A DNA stretch of 51,328 nucleotides from Nitratiruptor sp. (GCA_015494535.1 WGBC01000085.1:1-51328), one strand, 5' to 3'. Counted from the first letter of the stretch, positions 6,911 to 16,900 are shown. Notes: generated by a model from the letters alone, not told the origin. Translations and numbers: made by a program.

Positions 6911-8139
6911 GAGTATATTTCAAAACTTTTGGGTGTAGAACCAATCTTTTCGATACACAAATCATGATGAGTTCCCTCAAAGATTTTACCATTACCCAAA
7001 ATGAGCAAGATGCCGATATAATCGTGGTCAATTCCTGCACAGTGACAAATGGGGCGGATAGCAGCGTGCGCCACTATATCAATCGGCTAAGTAGGAGCAA
7101 TAAAAAAATTTATCTCACAGGGTGCGGTGCTTTTACTAAGGGTAAAGAACTACTAGAGGCTAAGAAGGTAAAAGGCGTTTTTGGCCATTCAGAAAAAGAG
7201 AAAATTAATGAACTGCTCCAAAAAGAGAATTTTTTTGAATTAGGCGATCTTACAAGCGTCGACAAGCAGATTGTAGGGGAGTTTATCGGCAAAAGCCGCG
7301 CTTTCATAAAAGTGCAAGAGGGGTGCGATTTTCGATGTAGCTACTGCATTATACCTTTTGTGAGGGGAGATGCTAGAAGCATGCCTGAAGATCGCATTAT
7401 CGAGCAGGTGCGAAAGCTCGCCGCCAATGGTTTTGGGGAGTTTATCCTCACAGGCACAAACGTTGGAAGCTACGGCAAAGACACGGGAAGCTCCCTTGCC
7501 AAACTGCTCAAACGCTTAAGCTTCATTCGAGGAGTAAGGAGGCTTCGCATAGGCTCCATCGAGCCAATTCAGATTGATGAGGAGTTCAAAGAGATTTTGG
7601 ATGAGCCTTGGATGGCGAAGCATCTGCATATCGCACTGCAGCACACTAGCGACAAGATGCTAGAAATCATGAATAGAAGAAACAGGGTGGAAGAGGATTT
7701 GAAGCTTTTTGAAGAGATCGCATCACATGGTTATGCGATAGGGACCGATTTTATCGTGGGACATCCTGGAGAGAGCGAGGAGATTTTCAAAGAGGCTGTA
7801 GAAAATATCCAGAAATTCCCTCTCACCCACATACACCTCTTTACCTACTCCAAGCGCGATAGCACGGCAGCGGCCAGTATGAAGTCACAAGTCCCAGGCG
7901 GCGTAGCAAAAGAGCGTTTTAAAATCATTAAATCGATAATAGAAGAGAAAAACTTGCAGTTTCGCCAAAAGCAGGGCGCTTTACAGGTGCTCGTAGAAGG
8001 TTGGAAGAAAGATTACTTTTTTGGTTATGATCAGTTCTATAATCCACTCTTTATTGAGAGTGAACTTGATTTGCAGGGCAACTGGGTGGAAGTGCAAGAT
8101 TACGAAGTGAAAAAAGAGGGAAATTTTGCCAAGTTTTAG
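6907..8139 (+). CDS. mtaB: tRNA N6-threonylcarbamoyladenosine (t6A37) methylthiotransferase MtaB
   Basis: This radical-SAM enzyme adds a methylthio group to t6A37 of tRNAs. The N-terminal UPF0004 domain has its three cluster cysteines in FGCRTN, NSCTVTN and TGCGAF. The radical-SAM CxxxCxxC motif is GCDFRCSYC near residue 140, followed by the TGTNVGSYG segment and a TRAM-like C-terminus. At 410 residues it matches MtaB better than MiaB or RimO. The start is GTG at 6907, inside GTGA of the MscS stop. Confidence 0.92.
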   Translation: MRVYFKTFGCRTNLFDTQIMMSSLKDFTITQNEQDADIIVVNSCTVTNGADSSVRHYINRLSRSNKKIYLTGCGAFTKGKELLEAKKVKGVFGHSEKEKINELLQKENFFELGDLTSVDKQIVGEFIGKSRAFIKVQEGCDFRCSYCIIPFVRGDARSMPEDRIIEQVRKLAANGFGEFILTGTNVGSYGKDTGSSLAKLLKRLSFIRGVRRLRIGSIEPIQIDEEFKEILDEPWMAKHLHIALQHTSDKMLEIMNRRNRVEEDLKLFEEIASHGYAIGTDFIVGHPGESEEIFKEAVENIQKFPLTHIHLFTYSKRDSTAAASMKSQVPGGVAKERFKIIKSIIEEKNLQFRQKQGALQVLVEGWKKDYFFGYDQFYNPLFIESELDLQGNWVEVQDYEVKKEGNFAKF

Positions 8140-9787
8140 GAAAAAACTCTGGATTTTGATTGGATCCTTTGTCGTTTTACTGTTGCTCGTGGGAGCCTTC
8201 GCACTAAAAAATATCCAAAGCCCGAGGCTCGATTACAAAACGTACCAGACACTGCTGCAAAACGGCATGATCGATCGTGCTAGAATCACGGATGGCATGG
8301 TCTATTTGCAAAGTGGTTCTAAAGAGTTCGTAATCCCAAAAGAGCTCATCGATGTGCAAGAGCTCTACAAAAGCGTGCCGGTGAGCGTAGTGTCCGACAT
8401 ATCGCAAGATATGATAGATATGGGGATTTTGCTGGTTCTCATTTTCTTCGTGGGCTATCTACTCTACTACATGCGCCAGCAGCGAAAAGAGCCAATCCCT
8501 ATCAAGCATCAAATCCAGATAGCCCCTATGGAGCAGGCAAACGATCTGAAATTTGAGATCACGCCCCAAGTGAGCGATGTGACTTTTGAGGATGTGGCGG
8601 GGATTGATGAGGTAAAAGAAGAGCTTGAAGAGATCATAGACTTTTTAAAAAATCCCCAAAAATATGTGGAGTTTGGCGTGCGCATGCCAAAAGGTGTCTT
8701 GCTAGTGGGGCCTCCGGGAGTGGGCAAGACTCTCATTGCCAAGGCGGTGGCGGGAGAGGCTGGGGCACCCTTTTTCTATCAAAGTGGTAGTGCCTTTGTG
8801 CAGATCTATGTAGGCATGGGGGCAAAGAGGGTTAGAGAGCTTTTTGCAAAAGCCAAGGAAATGGCTCCAAGCATAATTTTTATCGATGAGATCGATGCGG
8901 TTGGCAAGGCAAGGGGAGGTATGCGCAACGATGAAAGGGAAGCCACCCTCAACCAGCTGCTCACTGAAATGGATGGTTTTGAAGGTTCACAAGGCGTGAT
9001 TGTGATTGGGGCTACCAACAAGATAGAGGTGCTCGATGAAGCGCTGCTAAGACCTGGGCGCTTTGATAGGCGCATCTTTATTTCTCTGCCAAACAAAGAG
9101 GAGCGTAAGAAAATACTTGAAATTTACTTGCAAAAGATCCCTCACAGCGTGGAAGTAGATAGATTGGCGCAGATGAGCGTGGGCTTTAGCGGGGCGGCGC
9201 TTGCAAGTCTTGTTAACGAAGCAGCATTGGCTGCTTTGAGAAAAGGCAAGAAGAAAGTAGAATTAGAGGATTTTGAAGAGGTAAAAGATAAAGTGCTTTT
9301 TGGAAAGAAGAAGATTCTCGTCTTTAGCGAAAGGGAAAAGGAGATTCAAAGCATCTATCAAGCCGCTAAAGCGCTGGTGTCTTATTGGTATGGGATAGAT
9401 TTCGAGAAGATCTCTTTGATTGGCACGAGGCTCAAGGAGGTGGACAAGGAGATAGTATCTCGCAGCGACTACCTTGCTAAAATCAAAGTCTATCTAGCTG
9501 GCTACGTGGCGCTGGATCTCTTCTTTGGCGAGAAGTTTTCCAATGCCGCTGCCGATTTACACTTTGCCAAGGAGCTAGCTGAAGAGATGGTGCATCGCTA
9601 TGGGATGGGGGAGAGCTTGTTTGCTCAAAGTAGCGATGTGGTGCATATCTTGCAAGAAGCGCAGGATGAGCTGAAAAAATATCTCACATCCCATCAGCAG
9701 TTATTGCAAAAAATAGCTACATGTCTGCGCCAAAAAGAGTCCATTACCAAAGAGGATATCCAAGGTTTGCAAGATGCGCTACTTTAG
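8126..9787 (+). CDS. FtsH-like membrane AAA+ protein without the zinc-protease motif
   Basis: The 553-residue protein has FtsH architecture: TM1 (about 8-28), a short periplasmic domain, TM2 (about 97-117), then an AAA+ module. The motor looks active: Walker A GPPGVGKT (195-202), pore loop FVQIYVG (224-230), Walker B IIFIDEID (250-257), arginine fingers in LLRPGRFDRR (308-316). In the M41 part the HEAGH of FtsH is replaced by QAAKA (412-416), and the AEE of FtsH becomes ALD, although the GxxxDL aspartate region survives as NAAADL. It should therefore be an unfoldase or chaperone, not a peptidase. A similar FtsH-like paralogue occurs at this position in Helicobacter (from memory, HP0286). The TTG start at 8126 has GAGGG upstream and overlaps mtaB by 14 bp. 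Confidence 0.9.
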   Translation: MPSFRKKLWILIGSFVVLLLLVGAFALKNIQSPRLDYKTYQTLLQNGMIDRARITDGMVYLQSGSKEFVIPKELIDVQELYKSVPVSVVSDISQDMIDMGILLVLIFFVGYLLYYMRQQRKEPIPIKHQIQIAPMEQANDLKFEITPQVSDVTFEDVAGIDEVKEELEEIIDFLKNPQKYVEFGVRMPKGVLLVGPPGVGKTLIAKAVAGEAGAPFFYQSGSAFVQIYVGMGAKRVRELFAKAKEMAPSIIFIDEIDAVGKARGGMRNDEREATLNQLLTEMDGFEGSQGVIVIGATNKIEVLDEALLRPGRFDRRIFISLPNKEERKKILEIYLQKIPHSVEVDRLAQMSVGFSGAALASLVNEAALAALRKGKKKVELEDFEEVKDKVLFGKKKILVFSEREKEIQSIYQAAKALVSYWYGIDFEKISLIGTRLKEVDKEIVSRSDYLAKIKVYLAGYVALDLFFGEKFSNAAADLHFAKELAEEMVHRYGMGESLFAQSSDVVHILQEAQDELKKYLTSHQQLLQKIATCLRQKESITKEDIQGLQDALL

Positions 9788-12008: not shown

Positions 12009-12599
12009 ATGTATCTTTTTAGCCGTAAGTACGTCTTGGCGGGGCATCCCGATAAGTGTGCAGACACCATAGCAGATAAAATTGTAGATGAGCTGTTGTG
12101 AATCGATCCAAACGCGCGTGTGGCGACAGAGGTCTTTTTTGCGGATATCAACGTGATAGGTGAAGAGGTACGCGTCAACTAAAAGATAGACAAAGATTTC
12201 TACATCCAGTGCGCAAAAGAAGCCCTCAAGGCTATCGATTATCCTGAAAGCGGCTTTAGCCCGGAGCAGACGCTCTATCCCGACAGGCTTAACTATGAAG
12301 TCTAGTCCATTCTCAATCTTGCGAGATTGCCAGGGAGTGGACAAATCTGGCGAGCTTGGAGCAGGGGATGAGGGGATGATAGGCTATGCCATAAACGAGA
12401 GAGAGGACTACATGTCCATGCCATTATGATGGCAAAAGAACTTCGAGATATTCTCTATACCAACGCGAAAAACAACCCCAATAAGTATGGTGCGGATATA
12501 AAAACCAAATGTGGTAGGAAGGGCTAGGCCGTTGCATCTAAGTGTCTACGCCTTTGAGAGCGGCTGGATGAATTGGAGTGGTTTCAAAGCTTATGTTAG
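12009..12599 (+). pseudogene. metK: metK (S-adenosylmethionine synthetase) remnant with stops, frameshifts and internal deletion
   Basis: From ATG 12009 the frame reads MYLFSRKYVLAGHPDKCADT, clearly MetK. It is broken by TGA at 12099, TAA at 12180 and TAG at 12303. After each stop MetK-like sequence continues (IDPNARVATEVF; SGFSPEQTLYPD). The frame then shifts by +1 to read GVDKSGELGAGDEGM (from about 12337) and returns near 12426 to read KELRDILY and NPNKYGADIKT. It ends after another stop with ERLDELEWF and TAG at 12597, which resembles the MetK C-terminus. About 200 codons of the usual middle are absent. A functional metK must exist elsewhere, since SAM is essential. This fills the otherwise gene-free stretch 11938-12590. 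Confidence 0.85.
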
Positions 12600-13163
12600 T
12601 GCCTCTTTGGATGCGATTATGGCTCCAAGTCCAAGGAGCGAATCTAGAGGCTTCGCTGCCTCATTGACAGACTTGATGCCATCTTCTAGCAAAATTACCC
12701 AGTATCCTAGATGTAGCCCGCCTAAGGCTGTGTGTTTGACGCAGTAATCACCCGCCACCCCACAGACAAAAAGCCTCTTAACTCCTCTTTCTTGTAGGAG
12801 TGCATGCAGCTGCGTGCCTTGGAAGCCAGAATATGCGTCGAAATCTTTTGAAGTACCTTTGGAGATGATGAATCTGTTATCTTTTGGGATGGTTAGACCT
12901 CCTGCAAATTGGGCGCCTTGGGTGCCTGCTACGCAGTGTTCAGGCCAGATGCCACCGTTTTTTTCGAAGGAGACGTGATCCTTTGGGTGCCAGTCTCTCG
13001 TGAAAAATATGGGTAACTCTTTTGCGACGAAGAGATCGATATAGTGGTTAATGGTTGGGATGATGGTATCGGCATTTTTGACAGGCAGAGCCCCTCCTGG
13101 CAGAAAATCTTTTTGCATATCCACCACAACAAGGGCATCGAGTTCGTACAATGCTATTTTCAT
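12591..13163 (-). CDS. pncA: nicotinamidase PncA
   Basis: PncA hydrolyses nicotinamide to nicotinate and ammonia in NAD salvage. The 190-residue isochorismatase-fold protein shows the catalytic Asp in VVDMQKDFLPGGAL (about 14), metal ligands in the FTRDWHPKDHVSF segment, the Lys in IISKGTSKDFDAYSGFQ, and the nucleophile Cys in VCGVAGDYCVKHTA (about 145). The start is ATG 13163 with GGAG 6-10 nt upstream; a longer frame to 13280 would run through the divergent promoter and into pncB. The gene is divergent from pncB, which uses its product. Confidence 0.95.
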   Translation of the reverse strand: MKIALYELDALVVVDMQKDFLPGGALPVKNADTIIPTINHYIDLFVAKELPIFFTRDWHPKDHVSFEKNGGIWPEHCVAGTQGAQFAGGLTIPKDNRFIISKGTSKDFDAYSGFQGTQLHALLQERGVKRLFVCGVAGDYCVKHTALGGLHLGYWVILLEDGIKSVNEAAKPLDSLLGLGAIIASKEALT

Positions 13164-13178
13164 CCTTCGCTCCTTTGT

Positions 13179-13196
13179 TATAATAAGGCTATTGTA
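13179..13196. promoter_or_regulatory. divergent -10 boxes for pncB (+) and pncA (-)
   Basis: TATAAT at 13179-13184 on the plus strand lies 27 bp before the pncB ATG. On the minus strand 13196-13191 reads TACAAT, preceded by TGC, 28 bp before the pncA ATG. The two promoters face away from each other and overlap, so the salvage pair may be co-regulated. Confidence 0.5.
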
Positions 13197-13210
13197 GCAT
13201 AGGAGTGAAG

Positions 13211-14545
13211 ATGAGCGGATGGTTTGTGTGCGATCGAGACTACCCTTTGTTGACGGATCTCTATCAACTGACGATGGCAAATATCTATTTCCAAAAAAAC
13301 CTCAACGACATGGCTGCTTTCGACTTTTTTGTCCGTCCCAATCCAAAGCGAGGCTACTATGTGATGGCTGGCGTGGCGGAATTGGTCGATTTGCTCGAAA
13401 ATTTCCGTTTTGATGAAGAGGAACTAGCCTTTTTGCAAAGCCTTGGCAAGTTCAGTGAGGAGTTTTTGGAGTATCTGCGCCTTTTTCGTTTTGGAGGAGA
13501 AGTGTGGGCGATAAAGGAAGGTGAGATTTTTTTCGCCAACGAACCGGTAGTAAGCGTGCGAGCCTCTTTGATAGAGGCGCAAATCATCGAGACGCTGTTA
13601 ATCAATATCTTGCAACTTCCTATACTGGTGGCTACCAAAGCCGCGCGATGCTTTAGCGTAGCAAGAGGTACCTCGCTTGTAGATTTTGGCCTTAGAAGAG
13701 CGCAGGGCAAAGATGCTGGGATGCAAGCAGCGAGAAGCTCCTATCTAGCAGGCTTTTTGGGCACTTCTAATGTGCTTGCGGCCAAGGAGTTTGGCATTCC
13801 CGCTTTTGGCACGATGGCGCACTCTTTTGTGCAGGTGCACACAGACGAGAGAGAAGCATTCGCAGACTTTATTGATATCTATCCAGAAAACGCTATCCTT
13901 CTGGTGGATACCTATGATACTATCGAAGGAGTCAAGAGGGCTATCGAAGCGGTGAAGGGAGAAGGGCTAAAAAAATTCAAAGGTATTAGGATCGATAGTG
14001 GCGATTTGCTGAGTCTGAGTAAAAAAGCTAGAGAGATGTTAGACGTTGCCGGATTCACGGATGCCATGATTATAGCCAGTGGAGGGATAGATGAGTACGA
14101 GATAGAGAAGCTTTTGCAAGAGGATGCGCCAATCGATGCATGGGGCGTGGGCACCAAGCTGGTCACATCCGCCGATATGCCCTATCTCGATTGCGCTTAC
14201 AAGCTCGTGGAGTATGCCAACGAGCCAAAAATGAAGTTTAGCCCCCACAAAGTTACGTTGCCGGGGCGCAAGCAGGTGTTTCGGTGGTATAAGGAGGAGA
14301 AGATAGAGGATATAGTGGATCTTTTCGATGCCTCCTACACTGATGCCAAGCCGCTGCTACAGCTAGTAATGCAAGAGGGCAAAGCCGTTGGGGAGCTTCC
14401 ATCGCTGCAAGAGAGTCGAGAATATTTTATGCAAAACTTCCAAAAGCTGCCTGAGAACGTGAAAGATATCCACAACCCTACAACCTATGAGCCCACGATT
14501 TCTCCAAATATTCAGAATCTCATAAAAAGGCTCAAGAGTTCATAA
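13211..14545 (+). CDS. pncB: nicotinate phosphoribosyltransferase
   Basis: This enzyme converts nicotinate and PRPP to nicotinate mononucleotide (Preiss-Handler salvage). The 444-residue protein has PLLTDLYQLTMANIYF at the N-terminus, FFVRPNPKRGYYVMAG (about 37-52), the VDFGLRRAQG signature with catalytic His-neighbourhood (about 160), AHSFVQVHTDEREAF, and the RIDSGDLLSLSK phosphate-binding segment (about 260). ATG 13211 is preferred over the in-frame GTG at 13205 because AGGAG lies 6 nt upstream of it. Its stop overlaps the stop of the minus-strand peptidase gene by 14 bp. Confidence 0.94.
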   Translation: MSGWFVCDRDYPLLTDLYQLTMANIYFQKNLNDMAAFDFFVRPNPKRGYYVMAGVAELVDLLENFRFDEEELAFLQSLGKFSEEFLEYLRLFRFGGEVWAIKEGEIFFANEPVVSVRASLIEAQIIETLLINILQLPILVATKAARCFSVARGTSLVDFGLRRAQGKDAGMQAARSSYLAGFLGTSNVLAAKEFGIPAFGTMAHSFVQVHTDEREAFADFIDIYPENAILLVDTYDTIEGVKRAIEAVKGEGLKKFKGIRIDSGDLLSLSKKAREMLDVAGFTDAMIIASGGIDEYEIEKLLQEDAPIDAWGVGTKLVTSADMPYLDCAYKLVEYANEPKMKFSPHKVTLPGRKQVFRWYKEEKIEDIVDLFDASYTDAKPLLQLVMQEGKAVGELPSLQESREYFMQNFQKLPENVKDIHNPTTYEPTISPNIQNLIKRLKSS

Positions 14546-16868
14546 TCTTTTTGAGCTCTTCCCCGTCGATATACTCCTTTTTGATGAGCTCTTGCGCCAC
14601 TTTCTCTATTTTGTCCCAATATGTCTCCACCAGCTCCTGGGCTCTTTTGGTGGCTTTGTCGATCCAATAGGCAATGCGCTCTTCTACGAGATTTTTAAAA
14701 AACTCTTTGTTGACGTTTTGATTGAGGGTATCGACATGGATATAGCCAACCTTCTCGTCCATCCCAAAGACCGCTACGAGATTGTACGCCTCCCATGTAG
14801 CTTGCTCTAGATCTTGCGCAGCGCCGGTGTCCTCTCCCTCATCGGGAAAGCGCTTCTTCTTGGCTATGCGCCCGGCAAGCGCGACGCAGATATCGCTAAA
14901 AAGCTCTTCTTTGGAGATGTTGGTGATGAATTCGTCGCTATACGAAACGAATCCCAAGGCCTCTGCTCTTGGCGTGATGGTGACTTGCTCGATTTTGATA
15001 TCTGGCAATAAAATGTAGCTTAGCACCGCATGCCCAGCTTCGTGGTAAGCAGTCTTTTTGAGATCCTCTTCGATGTTGCGAATGCGCTTTTTGTCCACCT
15101 TTTGGCCATACTTTATGTTGTTTATCTGTTCAATCAAGATCTCCTCGGTCAGGCGCGGCAGATTTTTCCTCATTACATATAGGGCTGCCTCTTTGGCAAC
15201 GCGCTGCATTTCGTAGCCACTCAGTCCCGACATGTAGCGTGCCACTTTATCGATATCGATTTTTTCATGAGGCATCTGCAGGATCTTTTTGATGAAAAAT
15301 TTGCGTGCTTGCATATCAAGCTCAGGTACCTCTATCAAAATGTCGATCCTCTCGCTGGATAGGAGGTTTTTGTCGATATGGTCTTTGTTGATGGCGGTAA
15401 TGAGCACGAATATGCGATCCTCGTTTTGCAACGCATCTATCTCATCAATGAGCGCGTCGTAGGCGATTGGCGCTTGCGGGGTGTTATCGAGCCCATCAAC
15501 AAGCACGATCGCTTCATTCAATTCCTTCGCTTTGTTGAAGGCCAAATGAATCAGATTGGGGGCAAAAAGATCGGTGCCACTGAGCAGCACAAAAGGCATG
15601 TTGGCCTCTTTGGCGAAAGCGTAGGCCAGCAGCGTTTTGCCCACGCCTTTGGGACCATAGAGCAGCATCCCTTTTGGCATATTGACGGAGAACTTTTTTA
15701 CGAGTTCTGGATTTTTGATGATTTTGATGATCTCTTTTAGGCTATTTTTTACTAATTTTTGCCCCGCCACGTCGTCAAAGGAGATAGTAGAATACCCGCT
15801 TATAGGTTTTTCAGTAGCAGACACATAGTGAGGCAGTTTTTTGACGGATATGCCAACTAGCTGTATATGCAAAGTCTCTTTGTTTTGGATCTCTTTCCAC
15901 TGCAGCACCACGGTTTCGTTCTTTTTGATGAGGTTGTGCAAGAACTCTTTGTCGATCTTTTTTAAAAAATCCTTCGCTACGAGCTCAAAAACTATTTTTT
16001 TGATAGGGCTTTTGGTTTTGGCATAGGCTTTGGCGATGATGTCGATGAGGAGATCTGGAATCTTTTTGCTCACTCTTCTGGCATTGATATAGGGAGCAAA
16101 GGAGAGGACAATGGGCTTGAGGATCGCTTTTTCTTTGATTTTGATGGCGATTTGGAGTTTCTTCTCTAAGGTTTGGATGCTGTTTTGCAGCTGCAAATCG
16201 GCGATTTTGACGATGGCGTTGAAGCTTAGATGACGAAAGATGATGATATAGTTTTGCACCATCGTGGAGAGCAGCTCCGCATCGATAGCGCTCTCGACGA
16301 TGTCGTAGATGATTTTTTTCTCTTTTGCTACGTATTCTATGAGTTTGGCTTGGGCTTTGAGGGGATCTTGAAAGTAGAATTTCCAGAACTCCTCTTTTTT
16401 CAAAAGATTCGATCCTGCGGTAGTGGTGAAGATGAAGAGCGTGTTTTTGATGCCGGGGGCCTCTTTGAGAAAGCTAAGGATTGCCAGCTGGATGATGTTG
16501 TCGGCCTTTTCTATATCTTTGAAGACCACGATAGAATTTGGGTTCTCTTTGACGAACTTAGTGAGCTCGCCCTTTGGACCAAGAAGCCTCTTTTGATCGT
16601 TTGGATCGGTAAACTGCGCCATGTCGAAGACCCTGATGGCTTCGTAATCTGGGTTGAAGCGAGCCAGCAATTGGGCTAGGTAGAGTTTGCCGCAGTTGTG
16701 TGGACCCAAAAATGTGATGATGGCTTTGTAGTTTTGTGGTGCGCTTTGCAGTTCGATATGGATGAGCGCTTTGATGAGCTCCTTGACGGCTCTATTTTGG
16801 CCAAAGAAACTTTGCAGCAGTTTCTTTTCGAGCTCTTCAAATTTTGTAAAAATAGATTGAGATTGCAT
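14532..16868 (-). CDS. ClpB-like/FtsH fusion: M41 zinc metallopeptidase with two degenerate AAA domains
   Basis: A 778-residue protein from ATG 16868 (AGGA upstream; the in-frame TTG at 16886 lacks a site). Residues about 20-150 resemble the ClpA/ClpB D2 domain: FGQNRAV, FLGPHNCGK, FDMAQF, SIVVFKDIEKAD. Its Walker A has Leu after the Lys, and Walker B has Lys-Asp instead of Asp-Glu. Residues about 365-550 are an FtsH-type AAA domain: Walker A GPKGVGKT is good, but Walker B reads VLVDGLD (Glu to Gly), the aromatic pore loop is deleted, and the second arginine finger is Ile (SERIDI). The M41 part (about 600-778) is intact: HEAGH at 609-613 and Asp in GAAQDLEQAT at 686. There is no transmembrane segment, unlike FtsH. 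It probably cleaves proteins in the cytosol; how it is powered is unclear. Confidence 0.88.
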   Translation of the reverse strand: MQSQSIFTKFEELEKKLLQSFFGQNRAVKELIKALIHIELQSAPQNYKAIITFLGPHNCGKLYLAQLLARFNPDYEAIRVFDMAQFTDPNDQKRLLGPKGELTKFVKENPNSIVVFKDIEKADNIIQLAILSFLKEAPGIKNTLFIFTTTAGSNLLKKEEFWKFYFQDPLKAQAKLIEYVAKEKKIIYDIVESAIDAELLSTMVQNYIIIFRHLSFNAIVKIADLQLQNSIQTLEKKLQIAIKIKEKAILKPIVLSFAPYINARRVSKKIPDLLIDIIAKAYAKTKSPIKKIVFELVAKDFLKKIDKEFLHNLIKKNETVVLQWKEIQNKETLHIQLVGISVKKLPHYVSATEKPISGYSTISFDDVAGQKLVKNSLKEIIKIIKNPELVKKFSVNMPKGMLLYGPKGVGKTLLAYAFAKEANMPFVLLSGTDLFAPNLIHLAFNKAKELNEAIVLVDGLDNTPQAPIAYDALIDEIDALQNEDRIFVLITAINKDHIDKNLLSSERIDILIEVPELDMQARKFFIKKILQMPHEKIDIDKVARYMSGLSGYEMQRVAKEAALYVMRKNLPRLTEEILIEQINNIKYGQKVDKKRIRNIEEDLKKTAYHEAGHAVLSYILLPDIKIEQVTITPRAEALGFVSYSDEFITNISKEELFSDICVALAGRIAKKKRFPDEGEDTGAAQDLEQATWEAYNLVAVFGMDEKVGYIHVDTLNQNVNKEFFKNLVEERIAYWIDKATKRAQELVETYWDKIEKVAQELIKKEYIDGEELKKIMNS

Positions 16869-16900
16869 GGAAGTTTTCCTATTCAATTGCTTTTGCGATT

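Follow-up and report, generated by a model that had tools for sequence, protein, structure and literature searches.

Across a family of proteins that join a Clp-type AAA domain to an FtsH-type AAA domain and an M41 peptidase, most members have lost their motor residues and kept the cutting site intact, a pattern which, read from the sequences, suggests a protease that no longer needs its motor. AAA proteases are understood as motors that feed a chamber. The member described here is encoded in a 51,328-nucleotide stretch of Nitratiruptor sp. DNA (GCA_015494535.1, WGBC01000085.1; hereafter the window). The source genome, assembled to 79% completeness in 112 contigs, separately encodes a canonical FtsH and ClpB-like and ClpA-like proteins. 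The open reading frame lies on the minus strand and runs without stops from 16886 (TTG) or 16868 (ATG) to 14532. AGGA is found about 10 nt upstream of the ATG at 16868, and the product from this start is 778 aa long, with the following layout:

14532-16868, minus strand: the gene, encoding a Clp-D2-like AAA domain, an FtsH-like AAA domain and an M41 peptidase (open reading frame, Pfam)
15819-16868, minus strand: ClpA/ClpB-D2-like domain, residues 1-350, ATPase motifs lost (Pfam AAA_2 at 49-171, NCBIfam ClpA at 8-276)
15099-15788, minus strand: FtsH-like AAA domain, residues 361-590 (Pfam, structure model)
14538-15080, minus strand: Peptidase_M41 domain, residues 597-777 (Pfam, structure model)

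In the HMM searches that an earlier, sequence-only reading of this DNA had proposed, all three Pfam models scored above their cut-offs: AAA_2 over residues 49-171 (40.3 bits, cut-off 27), AAA over 401-515 (78.8 bits) and Peptidase_M41 over 601-775 (122.6 bits). The NCBIfam ClpA model, in its second ring (D2) and small domain, matches residues 8-276. The NCBIfam FtsH model matches residues 360-772 at 232 bits, under the equivalog cut-off of 600. No transmembrane anchor was found, the highest 19-residue Kyte-Doolittle mean being 1.37 compared with 2.69 for a membrane FtsH-like protein encoded in the same window. The 778-residue minus-strand frame, its three Pfam domains and its low hydropathy bear out the description of a soluble Clp-FtsH fusion. 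An AlphaFold2 single-chain model shows an FtsH fold over residues 360-778 with pLDDT mostly 80-98, and this part matches the structures of FtsH, AFG3L2 and YME1 (3kds, 6nyy). The input rows for the model were the window protein and FtsH, and the N-terminal half has pLDDT mostly below 50, giving nothing firm there.

The motifs of the window protein were read from alignments:

16683-16706, minus strand: Clp-like Walker A, GPHNCGKL, Thr replaced by Leu (motif alignment)
16515-16529, minus strand: Clp-like Walker B, VVFKD (FKDIE), Asp-Glu replaced by Lys-Asp (motif alignment)
15633-15656, minus strand: FtsH-like Walker A, GPKGVGKT, intact (motif alignment)
15540-15578, minus strand: site of the pore-1 loop deletion, GTDLFAPNLIHLA, 13 aa, where canonical FtsH has 19 aa with FVGVG (family alignment)
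15486-15500, minus strand: FtsH-like Walker B, VDGLD, Glu replaced by Gly, private to the source genome (codon GGG and family alignment)
15390-15392, minus strand: FtsH-like sensor-1, position 493, Asn replaced by Ile (motif alignment)
15348-15359, minus strand: arginine-finger pair, Ser504 (first, lost) and Arg507 (second, kept) (motif alignment)
15030-15044, minus strand: HEAGH zinc site, residues 609-613, with H609, E610 and H613 (sequence, family alignment)
14811-14813, minus strand: third zinc ligand, Asp686, in TGAAQDL (family alignment)

These agree with the sequence-only reading, which had called the M41 site intact (H609, E610, H613 and D686 are all present), the Clp-like Walker A Thr and Walker B Asp-Glu lost, and the FtsH-type domain damaged at Walker B, in the pore loop and at one arginine finger, behind a sound Walker A. 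Further losses can be added to its list: the sensor-1 Asn of the FtsH-type domain and, in the Clp-like domain, the sensor-1 Asn, the arginine finger (Thr202) and the aromatic pore loop. Where Hsp100 proteins have two active Clp-type rings, the window protein has one Clp-type domain with its motifs lost. The Gly codon in the FtsH-type Walker B (GGG, 15492-15494) is one base from a Glu codon, in an assembly that is incomplete.

To survey the family, we searched with an alignment of nine orthologues and found it in 64 of 399 genomes of the window's order, spread over 18 of 87 genera. Samples of the class and phylum outside this order gave no hits. With tblastn, no locus reached at least 80% query coverage in plasmids (query, the basal relative P0004) or in phages (query, the window protein), and viral contigs match only one half of the chimera. 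The motif table comprises 64 proteins from most of the 64 genomes, one genome having given two. The FtsH pore-1 segment is 13 aa long in all 64, compared with 19 aa in 10 of 10 references, a deletion of six residues.

We calculated a tree of the FtsH-AAA and M41 region rooted on canonical FtsH, by a quick method with SH-aLRT support only and with some long branches. The family forms one clade (support 100). At its base stand nine long proteins (open frames of 854-1096 aa) that form a grade. In the FtsH-type domain, 9/9 have Walker A, Asp-Glu, the sensor-1 Asn and the two arginine fingers. Of the Clp-type motifs, the Walker A Lys-Thr is found in 8/9 and the Walker B Glu in 6/9, and an aromatic Clp pore loop (GY or GW) is still present in most members. 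The other 55 proteins, including that of the window, are nested inside this grade (support 100). Since the nine basal relatives have mostly intact motors, their sequences indicate that the Clp-FtsH layout did not arise broken. Two of the nine, L159 (7590-10220) and L169 (7955-10516), have intact FtsH-type AAA motifs and a replaced first zinc His (YEAGH and KEAAH, respectively).

Within the nested clade of 55 the balance is reversed. The zinc ligands are present in every readable row (H 54/54, E 53/53, H 53/53, D 52/52) and the full FtsH-type ATPase set in 0/55, so that the description of a protease with its own degraded motor, made for the window protein, fits the whole clade. The Clp Walker A Thr occurs in 0/38 rows that have a Clp-like domain, and in most of these rows the Clp-like Walker B reads ED or KD. 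In the remaining 17 of 55 rows there is no recognisable Clp domain; AAA and M41 are kept, and most of these proteins are about 455 aa long. The FtsH-type domain has the sensor-1 Asn in 2/55 and the Walker B Asp-Glu in 6/55, all six being members of the window's own family, and its Walker A Lys is kept in 55/55. These six near relatives carry GPKGVGKT; pore loop and first arginine finger are gone in all of them and the sensor-1 Asn in five. The sequence-only reading had named orthologues with Walker B and pore loop intact as evidence against it, and the survey bears this out in part: loss of the pore loop is general, no member of the 64 having it, whereas the Walker B Gly is private to the window protein's genome, six relatives keeping Asp-Glu. 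On the tree the Asp-Glu state needs at least three changes, which may reflect either repeated loss, or loss followed by regain in the window's family and then loss again in the window. As a side observation, the commonest Walker B state in the clade is a swap to Glu-Asp, seen in 26/38 Clp-type and 28/55 FtsH-type rows (P0001 columns 117-118 and 458-459).

Selection was estimated from dN/dS of close pairs (Nei-Gojobori). Values lie at 0.016-0.083 in the FtsH-AAA domain and 0.012-0.095 in M41; those of the Clp-like domain are 0.045-0.19. The FtsH-AAA domain of the clade is under strong purifying selection and is kept as strictly as the peptidase. Dead as it is, the domain must therefore be kept for a purpose other than hydrolysis. 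For the clade, these values and the conserved zinc site together speak against a dying gene in random decay, and we reject that reading; for the window copy alone, decay forms part of a rival explanation given below. The gene is nevertheless dispensable, because six relatives have the same surrounding genes without it. One of them is G015, whose neighbouring proteins at the locus are 74-95% identical to those of the window.

Our preferred reading, to which we would give about an even chance, is that the window protein is a soluble, caged zinc peptidase scaffolded by its AAA parts, either ATP-independent or only gated by nucleotide. On this reading the family goes back to the joining of a Clp-type unfolding ring to an FtsH-type ring carrying M41. 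Because no family member has an FtsH threading loop, the ancestor probably threaded its substrates via the Clp ring. The ancestral FtsH ring, already devoid of the pore-1 loop, probably served as adaptor and peptidase carrier while the Clp ring pulled. In the window clade the Walker A Thr, Walker B, arginine finger and aromatic pore loop then disappeared from the Clp motor, and sensor-1 and other motifs from the FtsH ring, so that no recognisable pulling part is left. The AAA parts, presumably assembled as a hexamer, would now most likely hold the assembly together as a scaffold and gate access to the peptidase chamber; any bound ATP would be structural at most, and ATP-driven unfolding would be gone. 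Substrates cleaved in such a cage would be peptides or already unfolded segments, diffusing in or brought by a partner. The clade may still bind nucleotide, and some members may hydrolyse it weakly, since 55/55 keep the FtsH Walker A Lys and six keep both Lys-Thr and Asp-Glu.

A different possibility is that the window protein supplies the peptidase sites for an active AAA ring formed by the product of another gene, such as a canonical FtsH, a Clp ATPase or the membrane FtsH-like protein of the same window. The last of these (8126-9787, plus strand) is membrane-anchored and has an intact AAA domain (FIDEID), with YQAAK in place of HExxH; its zinc-site loss is repeated in seven relatives checked, and by its sequence it is a bacterial FtsHi-like pseudo-protease. 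From its gene order (aroB, mscS, mtaB) it presumably belongs to the H. pylori HP0286 family. The defects of the two proteins are complementary, which is suggestive at most, and rings mixing active and inactive FtsH subunits are known in plant plastids (PMC8197885; PDB 8xku, 8xqw). However, obligate complementation is weakened by relatives in which the membrane protein is likewise protease-dead and the chimera is absent. Almost all genomes searched encode FtsH-like relatives and the chimera is not so widespread, so the pairing is not obligate. The chimera also has no membrane anchor. We consider this hetero-complex unlikely.

A residual motor is equally unlikely, or very slightly more so. It would have the FtsH-type ring of the window's family still bind ATP and hydrolyse it slowly, the window's Gly being a recent loss-of-function allele on its way to deletion. 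The six relatives with GPKGVGKT and Asp-Glu fit this idea, as do the branch of the window protein, the longest in its group (0.21 compared with 0.11-0.15), and the lack of the gene from this locus in G015 and other close relatives. Against it, pore loop and first arginine finger are missing from those six as well, as is the sensor-1 Asn from five of them. Moreover, the window copy has its full length, no stop interrupts it, and in the M41 domain it shares 78-82% identity with its congeners. Finally, a pseudo-enzyme whose M41 fold only binds or assembles is very improbable: the replaced zinc His in L159 and L169 means that proteolysis is dispensable in some relatives, but the 55-member clade, which spans several families, has its zinc ligands in each readable row, and this would be hard to account for without catalysis.

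The chimera differs from each known system that it resembles. It shares with FtsH and the m-AAA and i-AAA proteases (TIGR01241) the AAA-then-M41 order, the fold, the zinc site and Walker A. Unlike them it has no membrane anchor, its pore-1 loop is deleted, Walker B, sensor-1 and one arginine finger are lost, and a Clp-like N-terminal domain is added; its FtsH score is 232 bits against a cut-off of 600. The plastid FtsHi proteins (PMC8197885, PMC6460958) are likewise FtsH paralogues that kept the fold and lost one of the two activities; judged by motifs, they are the opposite case, lacking the zinc site where the chimera has kept it and lost its ATPase motifs. The second ring of ClpA/ClpB (AAA_2) is matched by residues 8-276, and most basal relatives keep its motifs and aromatic pore loop; unlike ClpA/ClpB, the chimera has no first Clp AAA ring, carries its own fused peptidase and, in the window clade, has lost the ATPase motifs. 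The FtsH ternary conflict systems (Kaur et al. 2020, PMC7159879) also have two AAA domains per chain with the N-terminal one inactive, but both are FtsH-type and occur with MoxR-vWA genes. The chimera has a Clp-type N-terminal AAA and an M41 domain, and a MoxR-vWA pair is missing from the immediate neighbourhood of its gene. Open-licence papers gave nothing relevant for a Clp-FtsH chimera, an Epsilonproteobacteria Clp-FtsH fusion, a pseudo-ATPase or motor-dead M41 protease, or HP0286. This is consistent with the earlier statement that no characterised protein has such a layout, and the Clp-FtsH-M41 family is apparently undescribed so far. It offers a natural series, from motor-intact to motor-dead to motor-dead without the unfolding ring, along which strong selection continues to act on both the peptidase and the dead AAA domain. 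The series lets one test directly what an AAA ring gives a peptidase besides pulling.

The genomic neighbourhoods also differ between the clade and the basal grade. In the window's family the site is fixed, between the NAPRTase-like gene or its neighbours and an HlyD-like gene, from which the chimera gene is divergent. The neighbours are NAPRTase-like, HlyD-like (by Pfam), molybdopterin-oxidoreductase-like and ArgD-like (the other names from sequence). In the closest relative, L205 (G015:C62), compared with window positions 12591-16886, the chimera, the NAPRTase-like gene and a nicotinamidase-like gene are all missing. Members of the degenerate clade as a whole have ordinary, mostly family-specific neighbours, and no DUF4062-STAND gene lies near the window gene.

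By contrast, the motor-intact chimeras of four basal loci (L160, L161, L162 and L163) directly adjoin DUF4062-STAND/NACHT genes. L162 adds TIR and TrkA_N proteins, L161 similar genes, L163 a TrkA_N protein and L160 a TOTE-type primase-helicase. Elsewhere in the grade the neighbours are a NERD-helicase (L149), an ankyrin protein and a WYL regulator (L198) and a PP2C-kinase (L204). DUF4062 was reported in 2026, in a preprint, as a TIR-like NADase in antiphage defence (PMC13174449); the text describing this system, Swarozyc, mentions no FtsH, Clp or AAA, and four motor-intact basal relatives of the window protein adjoin DUF4062-STAND genes. The link to defence is one of neighbourhood, firm for four of the nine basal members and looser for three more. 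A basal chimera with DUF4062-STAND/NACHT is thus a candidate defence locus, and the basal members are candidates for its protease component. Plausibly, the ancestor of the family served as a protease in defence islands, and the window lineage descends from it by domestication. We put forward only tentatively, as rather less than probable, the full sequence of events: a defence-linked Clp-FtsH protease domesticated in Campylobacterota, its motors decayed and its Clp ring dropped in some lineages, ending as an ATP-independent, AAA-scaffolded zinc peptidase under strong selection. At two basal loci, a protein of about 180 aa belonging to no Pfam family directly precedes the chimera (L160:6649-7188 and L149:3112-3660).
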